Program-made: the position numbers and the translations under genes
From: an uncultured Actinomycetes bacterium
GTDB lineage: Bacteria > Actinomycetota > Acidimicrobiia > Acidimicrobiales > RAAP-2
NCBI GenBank assembly: GCA_903871335.1
Contig: CAIQGE010000006.1
Location: forward strand, 1 to 60,958
Reading direction: 5' to 3'
DNA: 60,958 nt
Notes under the pieces: generated by a model
The model's input: the letters and a program-made list of their open reading frames with translations, nothing else
Database searches by the model: none
Told to the model about the DNA's origin: nothing
Shown: one piece after another, positions 24,777 through 30,238 of the stretch
Numbering within the stretch: the stretch's first letter is position 1
Layout: each line of letters starts with the position of its first letter

Positions 24777-25210
24777 TCCGCCGGGGTCCGCAGTGCGGCC
24801 AGGATCGTTTTGCGACCGCGTGTGGCCGATTCGTAGGCGGCAATCTCGTCGCGCTCCATCGACGTCAGGCCGTCGAGCAGGGGGATAATTTGTGACGCCG
24901 ACAAGTTCTTGTAGTCCGGAATCGCGGTGGGCGTGGGCGGCACGACGACGTTGCTCGTTTCCTCACTCACGTCCGAAGCCACGTGCGTCGGCGTGGGTGA
25001 GGAAAACTGTTGCTTCAACTTTGCTGTCGCTGTCAACACCGTGAATTGACCCACAGCACGTGCCTGGCGTAACTCGCGCGCGACGCGCTCGGAGGTGGGG
25101 CCGGCGGCCTGGAGTGACTCCCCGATGACCTTCTCGCCCAAGTGGACGAGCGAGCCCACCATTTTCTCCGCCGACGTTACGAGGGCACGAAAGTCGGGTG
25201 ACTCAGACAC
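24773..25210 (-). CDS. Actinobacterial small helical protein with lipid-droplet-associated-type C-terminus
   Basis: 145 residues: an N-terminal amphipathic helix (FRALVTSAEKMVGSLVHLGEKVIGESLQAAG), a Ser/Thr/Pro-rich linker, and a C-terminal module (IPDYKNLSASQIIPLLDGL then ERDEIAAYESATRGRKTIL). That C-terminal module recurs in many actinobacterial proteins, including those annotated as lipid-droplet or granule associated. The first half could bind a membrane or a lipid surface. Function is inferred only from this resemblance. It starts at a GTG inside the last 8 bases of the DUF4193 gene and overlaps the GNAT start by 4 bp. Confidence 0.7.
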   Translation of the reverse strand: MSESPDFRALVTSAEKMVGSLVHLGEKVIGESLQAAGPTSERVARELRQARAVGQFTVLTATAKLKQQFSSPTPTHVASDVSEETSNVVVPPTPTAIPDYKNLSASQIIPLLDGLTSMERDEIAAYESATRGRKTILAALRTPAE

Positions 25211-25652
25211 AATCGCGGCACAGCGTGCGGTCCTTGTCAGCCAACTGACTGACCTTCTTCAAGAGGCGACACGATTTGCAACGGAATTCATCGTCTTGCT
25301 TGGGCAGTACCGACTCAACCGGTTCGCCCTTTTCGTCCGTGTCGGGGACGGCGTCTTCGTCATCGTCTACTTCGGTGGTAAGGCGCATCGTCTCAGCGAG
25401 CACTTCGTCGAGAGCCAGTTCAACGTCCTCGTCGAGTGCGAGATCGTCCTCATCGTCGACGACCGCGGGTTCAACGACGACATCGGCAACGACGTCATCG
25501 TCTCCTTCATCGTCAGCGTCCACCACCGCTGTGGTGTCGTCATCGAGCGCATCGGGATCGATGAATTCGTCTGTTTCGGCGTCGTCGCCGTCGAAGCCTT
25601 CGGCGAGATCCTCTTCGTCGAAAACCTCATCCTGATCTAAATTATCTGCCAT
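25203..25652 (-). CDS. DUF4193-family acidic protein with C-terminal zinc ribbon
   Basis: A 149-residue protein, strongly acidic over its first 110 residues (long Asp/Glu runs). It ends in a C-x2-C...C-x2-C ribbon: FRCKSCRLLKKVSQLADKDRTLCRDCV. That layout is the actinobacterial DUF4193 family, whose function is unknown; binding of nucleic acid or of a basic partner is a guess. The ATG has GAAGGA upstream. It is first in an overlapping trio with the helical protein and GNAT genes, so the three are probably co-expressed. A 90-base gap separates it from the ThyX-like gene. Confidence 0.88.
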   Translation of the reverse strand: MADNLDQDEVFDEEDLAEGFDGDDAETDEFIDPDALDDDTTAVVDADDEGDDDVVADVVVEPAVVDDEDDLALDEDVELALDEVLAETMRLTTEVDDDEDAVPDTDEKGEPVESVLPKQDDEFRCKSCRLLKKVSQLADKDRTLCRDCV

Positions 25653-25742: not shown

Positions 25743-27350
25743 TTAAAGTCCGGCTCGTTGGCGAGCCCGTTCCGCGGCACGTTCTGACGCCAAACGTTCA
25801 AGATCCGTCGATGAATAGTCCACGTAGGTCATGGCGTCAGCGATGTGCTGGTGGCCCGCTTGGTTCTTGATCAGTCGGTGCATTTCTTGGGCCACCCGGC
25901 GATAGCTGGGGTGTCCCTGGGGTCCCGAACGAAGTTCGATCAGGTGCATGGCTTCTCGAGCGTTCATTTGCATGACGTACCGAATCCGGAAGGCCAACGC
26001 TACTGCGTACTGCGCCTGCTCCGGCAACTCCTCGCGGAGGGATTCGTAGAGGTCCCGTGAACGTTCCAGTGACGCCACGTACGTATCGGTGAGTCCCGCT
26101 TCCGTGACGACCTCGGGTACGTCGTAACCGAGAGACGTGGACAGGTTCTGCCACTCGATCGTCAGCAGTCGGTGTCGCTGGAGATCGCGGAAGGCTCCGT
26201 AGTCCGTGACGAGCTCGAATCGGTAATCCGTCCGCTCGAATGCTCGTCCCGGCCGGTGTCGTCGATTGCTGCGATCCCCGACGTAGGCGTTGAACAGTTG
26301 GGTTCGTTCGAGCGGCGACATCGCGGCGACTTTTCGCGCGGCTTCGTCGTGGCTCATCGTGGAGTTGCCAAAAATGATGGCCTCGAGGACTCGGCTCTCC
26401 CCTTCCGGGTCGTAGTCCACGAGCCGTACGAACTCACCCTCGTCGGCATCACTCTCACCGAGGGTGGCAATGATTTGCGCGGTAGCGGACTTCGTGTCGG
26501 CGAAGTACTCACTCCACCGCACACCTCGGTCAGCAACTTCGACGCGACGGAGGAATGACGGGATGACCTTTGACAATTCGGTCAACATCATCTGTGAGTA
26601 CTCGCGCACCTCGTCCAATGGGTGCGCCCTCATGCGCAGCAACAGGGCTTCGTACGCTTGACCCGAGCCGTAGATGCCCACGTTGGACAAGGCACTCGCA
26701 GGTAACAATCCGCGCACCGCGTCCAGCGCTTTGGCTCGTATCGCCTGGCGATAGGCGAAGTCGGTGTCGTCGGGAGTTTTTGGATAGCGGCGCGTCAACC
26801 ATTCGGTCAGTTGCGGCAACAACTCACCATACGTATCGAACATCCGATCCATTTCGCCGACGTATCGGGCCCCGAATCGCGACTCCAAAATGCCAGTGTC
26901 GCGGTAGAAGCGGTAGTGCCCGTTCTCGAGTCGCTTGTCGTATCCCATATAACGAGTCGACTGCTCGAGGTAGCTCATGATGCGGCCCCACTCGAGCACC
27001 TTGGTGAGGACGTTGCTGGACTGCTCGCAGGCGAGGTGGACGCCACCCAGCTGGGCGACCGAGTCATCGCCGTATTCGAAAAAGACCTTCTGGTACAGCT
27101 CGTCGGCTCGATCGAGTCCGACGGTGGCGTCGATCGAAGCGTCGCCCGTCAGGTCGAGATCGCCCACGAATTCATCGAGGAAGAGACGTCGGAGACTCTT
27201 CGACGAGCGCGAGTATCGGGCAAAGAGGGCACCTTTGACCACTTCGGGCAAATTCACGAGAGCGAAGACTGGGCCGTCCAAGTTGGTGAAGTAGCGACGC
27301 AAAATGGCCACTTCAGCCTCGTTGAATTCCTCCGAAACGTACTGGTGCAT
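25743..27350 (-). CDS. Double-domain ThyX-like (FAD-dependent thymidylate synthase family) protein
   Basis: The 535 residues are about twice the usual ThyX length (220-250). The C-terminal half carries a near-canonical ThyX motif: RHRLLTIEWQNLSTSLGY, compared with RHR-x7-S-x-R. The N-terminal half carries a related but degenerate block with VHLACEQSSNVLTKVLEWGRIMSYLEQSTRYMGYD and HYRFYRD. It therefore looks like a tandem of two ThyX folds. True ThyX makes dTMP with FAD and methylene-THF. Whether this protein does so, or has another flavin reaction, is not clear. It follows helY by 12 bases in the long minus-strand run, with GGAG 6 nt before its ATG. Confidence 0.8.
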   Translation of the reverse strand: MHQYVSEEFNEAEVAILRRYFTNLDGPVFALVNLPEVVKGALFARYSRSSKSLRRLFLDEFVGDLDLTGDASIDATVGLDRADELYQKVFFEYGDDSVAQLGGVHLACEQSSNVLTKVLEWGRIMSYLEQSTRYMGYDKRLENGHYRFYRDTGILESRFGARYVGEMDRMFDTYGELLPQLTEWLTRRYPKTPDDTDFAYRQAIRAKALDAVRGLLPASALSNVGIYGSGQAYEALLLRMRAHPLDEVREYSQMMLTELSKVIPSFLRRVEVADRGVRWSEYFADTKSATAQIIATLGESDADEGEFVRLVDYDPEGESRVLEAIIFGNSTMSHDEAARKVAAMSPLERTQLFNAYVGDRSNRRHRPGRAFERTDYRFELVTDYGAFRDLQRHRLLTIEWQNLSTSLGYDVPEVVTEAGLTDTYVASLERSRDLYESLREELPEQAQYAVALAFRIRYVMQMNAREAMHLIELRSGPQGHPSYRRVAQEMHRLIKNQAGHQHIADAMTYVDYSSTDLERLASERAAERARQRAGL

Positions 27351-27362
27351 GGAACTCCGAGA

Positions 27363-29498
27363 TTAGAACCCCGTGTCCTTCCGTGGGTGGACCGTACTCG
27401 CGCCGGCCACCACGCTGCGCAGAACCCCGTCTCGGGCCTCATTTGCGGCGGCGGTGAGGGAACCCGACGACAGTCGTGAGACTTGCTCGCAGAGGTCGGC
27501 CACCTGTTTCGCGTTGCGAACGAAGTCGCCGGCGGAAAACTGCCCTGTGTCGGCTTCGGCAATTTCGAGGACTGTGGACAGAGGTGCCCCGCGAACCCAC
27601 GCCGCGATCGTCGACGCGAAGCCGCCGTCGAGCTCCTTGGCGTGTCGGACGTGGTGATTGTCCTCCACTTGTTGGATGTAGGCGGCAATTCCCATAATGG
27701 CACCGATACGTCCATTGATGTCACTGCGACGCTGGTCACCCAGTCGGTCGTTGCGGACTCTCTTCTTGGCCGTCGGCGTGTGGCGATGCGGTCCGGTCTT
27801 CTTGGCCTTCTTGGGCTCAAACACAAAGGCCGACAAAGCCGCGGCGATGGTGGCGGGTTCGGCATCCTCGAGCACGCCTTCGGCCAGAGTCTCCGCGATG
27901 AGGAGGTCACATTCGTGATAGATGGACCGCAAACACTCCCCCGACGGCGTGAGGCTCCAACCGTCCGCGTAACCGAGGTCGAGCAGGACGTGATGGCGCG
28001 CGGTCATTTGCTCCACCAAGGGCCGACGGGCGGACGTGGCGCGGCGGTCGGCTTCGAACTGGGCGTAGGACTGGTTCAGGATGGAGATGGCCGTGTCGCG
28101 ATCGAAATGATGCAACAAGTTCGCCGTGAAGTTATAGGTCGGTCGAAATGAGCTGTGCAGATCCGGCGGCGGAGCCAGAGCGACTCTCGCGACATCGAAG
28201 AGAGCCGTCTCGGTGGCGAAGCAGACAACGGCGTGTCCCTCATCGTCGAGTCCTCGGCGACCCGCTCGACCCGTGAGCTGCGCGTAATCCCCGGACGTCA
28301 AGACATTGCGACCAGCGTCGGAGTATTTGGTGAAGCGTTCCAAGACGACCGAGCGCGCGGGCATGTTGATGCCGAGGGCGAGCGTCTCGGTGGCGAAGAC
28401 GACGCCGAGCAAATTGGCGGTGAAGCAGGCCTCCACAATCTCCCGAAACGCCGGCACCATGCCGGCGTGGTGGGCCGCGATTCCCCTCTCGAGAGCGTCG
28501 ATGAACTCGGCGTAGTCGAGCGCCTGAAGATCGTCGTCGCTGAAGTCGACGAGTCGTCGAGCGGCAAGTTCGTGAATCTCCGCACGTTGCTCAACGTTGG
28601 TGAAGAGGAGGCCGTCACGGCGGCATTGACGCACGGCATCGTCGCAGGCCGCTCGTGAGAAAATGAACACAATCGCCGGCAGAAGGTCGGTCGCGTCCAT
28701 GACACGTAAGAGGTCGCTGCGTCGTGGTGCGCGCACCGGTGGTGGTGGCGCGCTCTGTCGGTTGCCGTGCCATTGGGGACCGGGTCGAAAACGCCTCGTG
28801 GATTTCATCTGATTGTCGACGCGGCGAGCTTCGTCAGACAGGGCATTCCCCTTCAAAAGATCGATGAGTTCGGGGAGCTCCTGGGCGCGTCGCGCGATCG
28901 CAACGTGGTTGTGGAGTGCGATCGGACGCGTCTGTTCAACGACCACCGTTGTCGGACCACGAACCTCGCTCAACCATTCCGCCACGACGCGGGCATTGGC
29001 AATCGTGGCGGACAGGGCGACGAATTGCACGATCGTCGGGGTGAGGATGATGACTTCCTCCCATACTCCCCCGCGATACGGGTCCTGTAGGTAATGGACC
29101 TCGTCGAGGATGACGACGTTGAGTCGTTGAATCTGGGACGACTCAGTGAGCAGCATGTTCCGCAGCACCTCAGTCGTCATAACGACGACGTCCGCGTCAG
29201 GGTTGACGGAATTGTCGCCGGTGAGCAGACCCACCTTGTGCGCACCGTACCGCTCAACGAGTTCATTGAACTTTTGGTTCGACAGTGCCTTGAGGGGGGT
29301 TGTATAAAAGGCACGTCCACCATTGCTCAGCACCCGTTCGATGGCGTAGGTCGCCACCAGTGTCTTGCCCGAACCCGTCGGGGCCGAGACCAGTACGTTC
29401 TCGCCCTCGTCAACAGCGGCGAACGCCTCTAGTTGGAAGTCGTCGACGCTAAAGCCGAGACCCGCGACGAATCGCTCGCGGCGCGACAGGTCGGTCAC
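27363..29498 (-). CDS. helY: SKI2/Mtr4-like DEAD-box RNA helicase
   Basis: A 711-residue superfamily 2 helicase. Walker A is APTGSGKT (39-46) and motif II is DEVH (132-135). Motif III is ALSAT, and motif VI is QLTGRAGRRG with the preceding FATETLALGINMPAR. The C-terminal helical region is like that of actinobacterial HelY, which is encoded beside tatC in many of these genomes. HelY probably unwinds structured RNA for decay or ribosome maturation. The start is the GTG at 29496-29498, which overlaps the tatC stop by 4 bp; the longer open frame upstream reads through tatC and is not used. Confidence 0.92.
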   Translation of the reverse strand: MTDLSRRERFVAGLGFSVDDFQLEAFAAVDEGENVLVSAPTGSGKTLVATYAIERVLSNGGRAFYTTPLKALSNQKFNELVERYGAHKVGLLTGDNSVNPDADVVVMTTEVLRNMLLTESSQIQRLNVVILDEVHYLQDPYRGGVWEEVIILTPTIVQFVALSATIANARVVAEWLSEVRGPTTVVVEQTRPIALHNHVAIARRAQELPELIDLLKGNALSDEARRVDNQMKSTRRFRPGPQWHGNRQSAPPPPVRAPRRSDLLRVMDATDLLPAIVFIFSRAACDDAVRQCRRDGLLFTNVEQRAEIHELAARRLVDFSDDDLQALDYAEFIDALERGIAAHHAGMVPAFREIVEACFTANLLGVVFATETLALGINMPARSVVLERFTKYSDAGRNVLTSGDYAQLTGRAGRRGLDDEGHAVVCFATETALFDVARVALAPPPDLHSSFRPTYNFTANLLHHFDRDTAISILNQSYAQFEADRRATSARRPLVEQMTARHHVLLDLGYADGWSLTPSGECLRSIYHECDLLIAETLAEGVLEDAEPATIAAALSAFVFEPKKAKKTGPHRHTPTAKKRVRNDRLGDQRRSDINGRIGAIMGIAAYIQQVEDNHHVRHAKELDGGFASTIAAWVRGAPLSTVLEIAEADTGQFSAGDFVRNAKQVADLCEQVSRLSSGSLTAAANEARDGVLRSVVAGASTVHPRKDTGF

Positions 29499-30238
29499 TT
29501 GCGAGCGAGCTTGCCGACGCCGATGGAAGCGAAATAGAAGCCCACCAGCGGAACGGCGAGAGCCAGCATGGAGAAGGGATCCCCACTCGGTGTGATGACC
29601 GCGGAAATCACCACGATCCCGATGATGGCCCAGCGCCACGCCCGTAACAATTGATGGGGTGTGACGATATTGGCGAGTTCCAAACTGACCAAAATGACGG
29701 GAAACTCAAAGGTCAGCCCAAAGATGAACATCATCAAGAGGATGAGCGTGAGGTAGCTATTGGGCTGGTAGTCGGCGTGAATCTGGGATCCTCCCACGGC
29801 CTGGAGGAACTTGAGTGCGTGTTCAAAGCTGTAATAGGCGAGCAAGGCTCCGCCCGCAAAGAAAACGAGTGAAGCGGTCACGAAGGGGATGATGTACTTC
29901 TTCTCCTTCGCCTTGAGACCGGGCGTGATGAATCGCCATATCTCGTAGAACACGATGGGTGACGCGAGGAAGAGTCCGCCGAAGAGGGCAATCTTGATGC
30001 GCAGGGTGAGTCCGTCCAAGGGTCCCGTGGCGAGGAAGGTGCAATGGTGGGGCGAAATCGAGCAATACGGCTGCTGCAGAAGTTTCAGCATGTCGTTGTA
30101 GCCAACGAACCCCACGATCGCCATGAACACCAAGACGGCACCAACGCTGATCATCAATCGAGTTCGTAACTCAATGAGGTGCTCGCCGAGGGTCATCCCC
30201 GTAGCGGCCTTCTTGCCGGATTTCGAAATAGGTGACAT
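29495..30238 (-). CDS. tatC: Sec-independent protein translocase TatC
   Basis: TatC is the signal-peptide receptor of the twin-arginine pathway. The 247-residue protein has six predicted spans and the family marks EHLIELRTRL at the N-terminus, YEIWRFITPGLKAKEKK in the first cytoplasmic loop, FEFPVILV, and ITPSGDPFSMLALAVPL near the end. It is the second Tat gene, four bases after tatB, and its stop overlaps helY. The Tat-type esterase at 19.7 kb is a likely client in this window. Confidence 0.96.
   Translation of the reverse strand: MSPISKSGKKAATGMTLGEHLIELRTRLMISVGAVLVFMAIVGFVGYNDMLKLLQQPYCSISPHHCTFLATGPLDGLTLRIKIALFGGLFLASPIVFYEIWRFITPGLKAKEKKYIIPFVTASLVFFAGGALLAYYSFEHALKFLQAVGGSQIHADYQPNSYLTLILLMMFIFGLTFEFPVILVSLELANIVTPHQLLRAWRWAIIGIVVISAVITPSGDPFSMLALAVPLVGFYFASIGVGKLARK

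Follow-up and report, generated by a model that had tools for sequence, protein, structure and literature searches.

A tandem ThyX-like protein of Acidimicrobiia probably forms one thymidylate synthase active site from two reciprocally degenerate halves

The 60,958-nucleotide window analyzed here (contig CAIQGE010000006.1 of assembly GCA_903871335.1, from an uncultured member of the Acidimicrobiia) contains a ThyX-like gene of double length, and this raises the question of whether one half is an enzyme and the other a degenerate or regulatory copy, whether the protein catalyzes a different flavin-dependent reaction, or whether both halves contribute to a single thymidylate synthase. The gene lies on the minus strand (25743..27350, the strand of all features of the protein given below) and has 535 codons, with an ATG start and GGAG 5 bases ahead of it. 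The double length noticed in a first-pass annotation is borne out, as the open reading frame is a tandem of two Thy1 (ThyX) domains: a Pfam scan up to E 1 matched Thy1 twice and no other family, PF00303 (ThyA) thus being unmatched, and a six-frame Thy1 search gave E values of 2.2e-19 for the C-terminal half (C-half, residues 301-535, 25746..26450) and 1.3e-13 for the N-terminal half (N-half, residues 1-300, 26451..27350). The six-frame search found no further Thy1 gene in the 2.23-Mb assembly (97.5% complete), of which the tandem is the sole Thy1 gene. The whole protein scores 121.4 bits against PF02511, whose cut-off of 24.8 bits is also passed by each half separately (69.1 and 50.2 bits), and 48.1 bits against the NCBIfam thyX equivalog TIGR02170, below its cut-off of 87.9.

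The two halves had been described as related, and this holds with single-domain ThyX as the intermediate: profiles from 118 tandem sequences matched single ThyX at 97.6% for the N-half and at 98.8% for the C-half, whereas a direct comparison of the N-half and C-half profiles gave no similarity (3.9%). Because each half is tied to single-domain ThyX and not to the other, the two have diverged in different directions. Searched as a single sequence, the protein matched no ThyX among solved structures; a profile of 32 tandems did, its N-half aligning with M. tuberculosis ThyX residues 58-228. Structure prediction, which had been proposed as a check for two ThyX folds, returned one of them. In the full-length single-chain model (mean pLDDT 78.8), residues 304-514 of the C-half superpose on T. 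maritima ThyX with Z 14.3 (191 residues, 2.5 Å, 17% identity), but the N-half modeled alone was poor (pLDDT 66.5), its Z of 5.3 to ThyX being tied with unrelated helical proteins, and ThyX was absent among the 50 Foldseek matches listed for it. By our reading of the full-length model, in which segments 94-103 and 109-132 have pLDDT <50, the order of helices and strands is similar in both halves. The predicted ThyX fold is thus confirmed for the C-half only, and the assignment of the N-half rests on sequence profiles.

ThyX active sites are described as sitting between three monomers of a homotetramer (PMC11940539). For one site of M. tuberculosis ThyX, passages of PMC6514825 assign R95-H96-R97 and R199 to subunit A, S71 and R190 to subunit B, and R87, S105, R107 and the lid residue Y108 to subunit C. 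In PolB, R82, H83 and R86 of one monomer are reported to bind the nucleotide together with E94', S96', R98' and R166' of its neighbor, with R193 on the uracil (PMC5003785), and the description of PBCV-1 ThyX agrees, with Q75 and R182 on one monomer and S88 and Q89 on the other (PMC3498832). Equating these roles with T. maritima numbering by spacing and profile alignment gives R78, H79, R80 and R174 for A, T55 and R165 for B, and E86, S88, R90, Y91 and R147 for C. Across 34 single ThyX sequences chosen by profile and not by motif, R78, S88, R90 and R174 occur in 34/34 and H79, R80, R147 and R165 in 33/34; Y91 is found in 31, with F in the other 3, and at position 86, Q (21) outnumbers E (13).

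Conservation in the tandem was read from 38 sequences of the class, which include the window and were chosen among the better-scoring of 221 genomes with at least two Thy1 matches, and from 22 sequences from elsewhere in the phylum, chosen from genomes with at least two Thy1 matches; both sets were found by Pfam and not by motif. Left out were a locus with a broken frame (L064), a divergent single-domain protein (L069), a sequence of 100 bases (L073) and two partial ones (L087 and L098). Since 59 of the 119 aligned bacterial sequences came from a pattern search (GDDSVAQL, FRDLQRHR), only the sets of 38 and 22 are used for stating how conserved residues 94-101 and 387-394 are. As to two of the loci set aside, L064:5306-6971 (G209) holds a tandem ThyX spread over two overlapping frames, an assembly error or a broken gene, and L069 is a second Thy1 protein of G119, with a 289-aa frame and RNY for RHR, the tandem lying elsewhere in that genome.

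Neither half carries the whole single-domain signature of RHR followed by S-x-R-Y: the first part is in the C-half only, the second, as S-T-R-Y, in the N-half only. The C-half keeps the subunit-A set, with R392, H393 and R394 (R78, H79 and R80) in the D-L-Q-R-H-R stretch (residues 389-394, 26169..26186) and R474 (R174) at the end of N-A-R...E-L-R (residues 463-474, 25929..25964), the latter also holding R465 (R165) and N463 (N163). R392, H393, R394, R465 and R474, as well as D389 in the place of Q75, were each present in 38/38 and 22/22 sequences, and N463 in 37/38 and 20/22. The motif had been called altered, which fits the arrangement as a whole but not the RHR triplet itself, which is intact in every sequence of both sets; what has gone is the dUMP loop that should follow it. 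By alignment, the C-half is without equivalents of E86, S88, R90, Y91 and R147. The place of the substrate loop (residues 395-408, 26127..26168) has no S88-x-R90-Y91, S-x-R-Y after the C-half RHR occurs in 0/117 distinct sequences, and the residue standing for R147, Q447 (26010..26012), varies among the 117 (Q 47, S 21, P 21, A 15).

The N-half is changed in the opposite sense. In its W-G-R...E129-Q-S131-T-R133-Y134 stretch (residues 121-134, 26949..26990), W121 and G122 stand by alignment at the R78 and H79 positions, and the substrate loop with E86, S88, R90 and Y91 is kept as E129, S131, R133 and Y134, each in 38/38 and 22/22 sequences; the same holds for R213 (26712..26714), the equivalent of T. 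maritima R147, which binds the dUMP phosphate. In the 117 distinct sequences, position 121 is W in 86, R in 29 and H in 2, and position 122, the H79 equivalent, is H in none. GDDSVAQ (residues 94-100, 27051..27071) takes the place of ThyX G-H53-x-S/T55-x-x-E58, with D95 for H53 and Q100 for E58, and Q231 (26658..26660) stands for R165, which binds the FAD phosphate. D95, S97, Q100, Q231 and E234 are each invariant (38/38 and 22/22), and D95, Q100, Q231 and E234 neighbor or replace ThyX cofactor residues. The loss in the N-half is incomplete, given that R80 is kept in both halves, R occupies the R78 position in 29/117 sequences, and R239 may be an R174 equivalent. The picture of one normal and one degenerate copy gives way to reciprocal degeneration, and asking for standard ThyX residues in both halves does not apply to a protein in which each half has a different, complementary subset.

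All ten residues kept, namely R392, H393, R394, R474 and R465 in the C-half and E129, S131, R133, Y134 and R213 in the N-half, are found in 38/38 class sequences and 22/22 from elsewhere in the phylum. With four positions retained at random out of nine (R78, H79, R165, R174, E86, S88, R90, Y91 and R147), the set kept by the C-half would have a chance of 1/126, or of 1/42 with T55 counted (four of ten positions). The residues of the third subunit (B) are not cleanly sorted, S97 (T55) being in the N-half and R465 (R165) and E372 (E58) in the C-half. The pattern is the one that would be expected if two of the four sites of a pseudo-tetramer were under selection and two had been released. Taken together, the halves retain most of the ThyX residues that contact FAD and dUMP, with two exceptions, D standing for Q75 and H53 being changed in the N-half; T. 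maritima ThyX with the H53D substitution has been crystallized with FAD, according to the titles of entries 4kar and 4kas.

The tandem is probably a conventional flavin-dependent thymidylate synthase that functions as a dimer of tandems, in which two composite sites would be live and the other two inactive. Together, two chains would bring four Thy1 domains into an arrangement like that of ThyX. At each live site, the C-half would supply RHR and the R174 equivalent for FAD binding and for the orientation and activation of the uracil, and the N-half would supply the E-Q-S-T-R-Y loop and the R147 equivalent for the phosphate and ribose of dUMP, together with the lid tyrosine. The dimer would have two such composite sites, the other two being inactive for want of partner residues on both sides, and the reaction would be dUMP + CH2-THF + NADPH to dTMP + THF. 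As each half has lost the opposite part of the catalytic machinery, the halves probably work only together, and the subunit roles of an ancestral homotetramer have probably been divided between two fused domains. The tandem would work like ThyX and belongs to the Thy1 superfamily, not to ThyX as narrowly defined, since no single domain has the whole signature and the protein scores below the NCBI cut-off.

It would also be conceivable that the C-half makes up the entire enzyme, with the N-half as a pseudo-domain of structural or regulatory function, given that the C-half has the RHR motif and the only confident ThyX fold; this is very unlikely, as the C-half is without S88, R90, Y91 and R147, which are present in 34, 34, 31 (F in 3) and 33 of the 34 single ThyX, and the N-half has all four in 38/38 and 22/22 sequences. 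The purely regulatory half put forward in the first-pass annotation is likewise not upheld, since the N-half carries the half-site by which ThyX holds dUMP. A variant closer to the composite synthase concerns its second pair of sites, which might bind a ligand (nucleotide, flavin or folate) and regulate or assist the live pair, a reading that we regard as rather improbable. The complete conservation of D95, Q100, Q231 and E234 in both sets and the presence of W400 in 113/117 and Q401 in 115/117 distinct sequences speak for it, but the replaced positions 121, 402, 404-406 and 447 drift among the 117 sequences, the conserved replacements may be structural, and residues 95-100 may belong to the live site. 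The corresponding idea that the non-catalytic pair is a conserved ligand-binding site, so that catalytic and regulatory pockets derive from one ancestral site and regulation is built in, is unlikely on the same sequence evidence.

The distribution of the tandem bears on which reaction it carries out. Thy1 was matched in 256/296 genomes of the class, two or more times in 221 (tallies counted by hand on the match listing), and 33 of the Thy1-positive genomes belong to the same small-genome family, in which the protein has one domain and a frame of ~220 aa. PF00303 was found in 24/296, as 20 full-length matches, one in two pieces (G009) and three weak ones (G000, G287, G237). Full or split ThyA occurred in 19 of the 40 Thy1-negative genomes (10 of them named as negative and 9 deduced by absence from the Thy1 match rows) vs 2 of the 256 Thy1-positive ones (G110 and G009; p = 6e-17), so that, across the class, the tandem gene and thyA come close to mutual exclusion. 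Thymidine kinase (PF00265) was present in 65/119 genomes and not found in the genome of the window. Among 20 listed of the 54 kinase-less genomes, 18 have two Thy1 matches, no PF00303 and a completeness of 95-100%, the remaining two being G110 and the genome of the window. For the 18, no source of dTMP other than the tandem was found among the families searched. An enzyme acting on another substrate, such as a flavin-dependent methylase (PolB, for instance, uses UMP), would suit D389 in place of Q75, the altered H53 and the low NCBI thyX score, but sits badly with the near exclusion of ThyA and with the 18 genomes, and we regard it as highly improbable. The different flavin-dependent reaction suggested earlier finds no support, given the same two observations and the retention of most FAD and dUMP contacts.

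DHFR_1 was matched in 14/296 genomes, of which 12 are among the 21 with ThyA and 2 among the remaining 275 (p = 3e-14). This scarcity weakly fits ThyX chemistry, which gives THF and not DHF, the evidence being weak because 9 of the 21 ThyA genomes are also without DHFR_1. Nine genomes of one family (f45, genera g97 and g145) have full-length ThyA without Thy1 and DHFR_1 and should therefore have another dihydrofolate reductase. In G009, the ThyA match (C39:1968-3886) is in two pieces ~1 kb apart (profile positions 1-176 and 172-266) beside a DHFR_1 match; this genome also has two Thy1 matches, and its split ThyA is an interrupted gene or carries an insertion. Among single-domain proteins, the ThyX at L174:262-1950 (G599) carries an intein-like insertion (Intein_splicing 57 bits, HNH 33 bits) that breaks its frame between positions 79 and 81 of the Thy1 profile.

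The genome of the window itself encodes, on contig C22 (L003:1261-1917), a 218-aa protein with a partial PF00303 match. With about 52 bits, this protein could be thought to make the dTMP of the genome, leaving the tandem to do something else, but it covers only profile positions 88-227 of 266, the 20 full-length ThyA of the class score 390-432 bits, and it was not found in any of the genus's 12 other genomes, each of which has two Thy1 matches; we hold this to be extremely unlikely. It is perhaps a nucleotide hydroxymethylase or a methylase of another pathway, and the open reading frame before it presumably resembles a sugar O-methyltransferase.

The composite synthase that we favor shares features with several known systems. 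Compared with ThyX (T. maritima TM0449, M. tuberculosis; PF02511), both halves are homologous by profile and RHR, R165, R174, E86, S88, R90, Y91 and R147 are shared out between them, but the tandem has two fused non-equivalent domains, D for Q75, D for the N-half H53, and a score below the NCBI thyX cut-off. PolB, a UMP/dUMP C5 methylase of polyoxin biosynthesis, has the ThyX fold and is described as drawing the same substrate contacts from two monomers (PMC5003785); unlike the tandem, it is a single domain, accepts UMP and acts in an antibiotic pathway. Trypanosomatid deoxyhypusine synthase and its dead paralog, described in PMC3663545, offer a functional analogy only, a homotetramer having given way to non-equivalent subunits, although the protein is unrelated and two genes without fusion are involved. 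Among the papers listed by searches of the open-licence PMC library, none was found to describe a double-length ThyX; PMC9931769 was checked for words of duplication or fusion only.

Long Thy1 proteins other than these are annotated in databases, for example in chlamydiae. Outside the class, 22 full-length relatives from 14 families score 638-867 bits against the class profile, and the pattern search gave at least 80 loci, those listed being mostly from Acidimicrobiia, Acidimicrobiales or actinobacterial assemblies without placement, a spread that by itself points to a probable origin of the window in Acidimicrobiia. Of the viral proteins, the 491-aa Microcystis phage LMM01 enzyme gave the best fold match (546 columns). 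The proteins of Tunturiibacter phage Tunturi_5 (518 aa) and of Microcystis phages (491 aa) are tandem and Thy1-type, with the same split of A and C residues between N- and C-halves and about 26% identity to the bacterial tandem over the aligned part. Unlike the bacterial tandem, these phage proteins (L074, L075) retain an H53 equivalent in the N-half and have lost that of R165 from the C-half; their T55 equivalent, too, lies in the N-half. In the Microcystis-phage protein, Pfam recognizes a single Thy1 stretch. A tree of 82 rows groups the 26 N-halves, those of the phages among them, in one clade (100/99) and the 26 C-halves likewise in a second (100/100). This tentatively suggests one old fusion behind bacterial and phage tandems, tentatively because the program warned that long branches meet in the tree. 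One viral contig carries a close relative of the tandem (53% identity); a viral scan with the Tunturi_5 protein found nothing, and one with the Microcystis-phage protein returned 24 loci at 91-96% identity. The view of the tandem as a phage gene in this genome was considered and is unsupported, its neighborhood being common to other genomes of the class.

If the composite reading is right, DNA synthesis in a bacterial class and in relatives from other parts of the phylum depends on a ThyX with its active site divided between domains. Such a protein would naturally put to the test the multi-subunit active site inferred from crystal structures and mutants, as the two best-defined sets (RHR/R174 and E86-S88-R90-Y91-R147) have been sorted to opposite halves by subunit role, and the tandem would allow one set of ThyX sites to be altered independently of the other. 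It may also close an annotation gap, because the NCBI thyX model misses the tandem at its cut-off and such genomes can consequently seem to have no thymidylate synthase.

The surroundings of the tandem look like ordinary chromosomal housekeeping genes. A helY-like helicase gene with DEAD and DSHCT domains (27363..29639, minus strand) lies 12 bp upstream and is probably on the same transcript, a neighbor and not part of the enzyme. A position after helY had seemed odd for a nucleotide enzyme but is not peculiar to this genome, a helY relative being upstream on the same strand in 23/38 class loci and tatC in 21/38. As a hint at function, helY was dropped, given that the fetched stretch of 15/38 loci holds no helY relative. 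The next gene downstream of the tandem (25203-25652, minus strand) encodes a very acidic protein with a C-terminal DUF4193 match, relatives of which lie near the tandem in 10/38 class loci.
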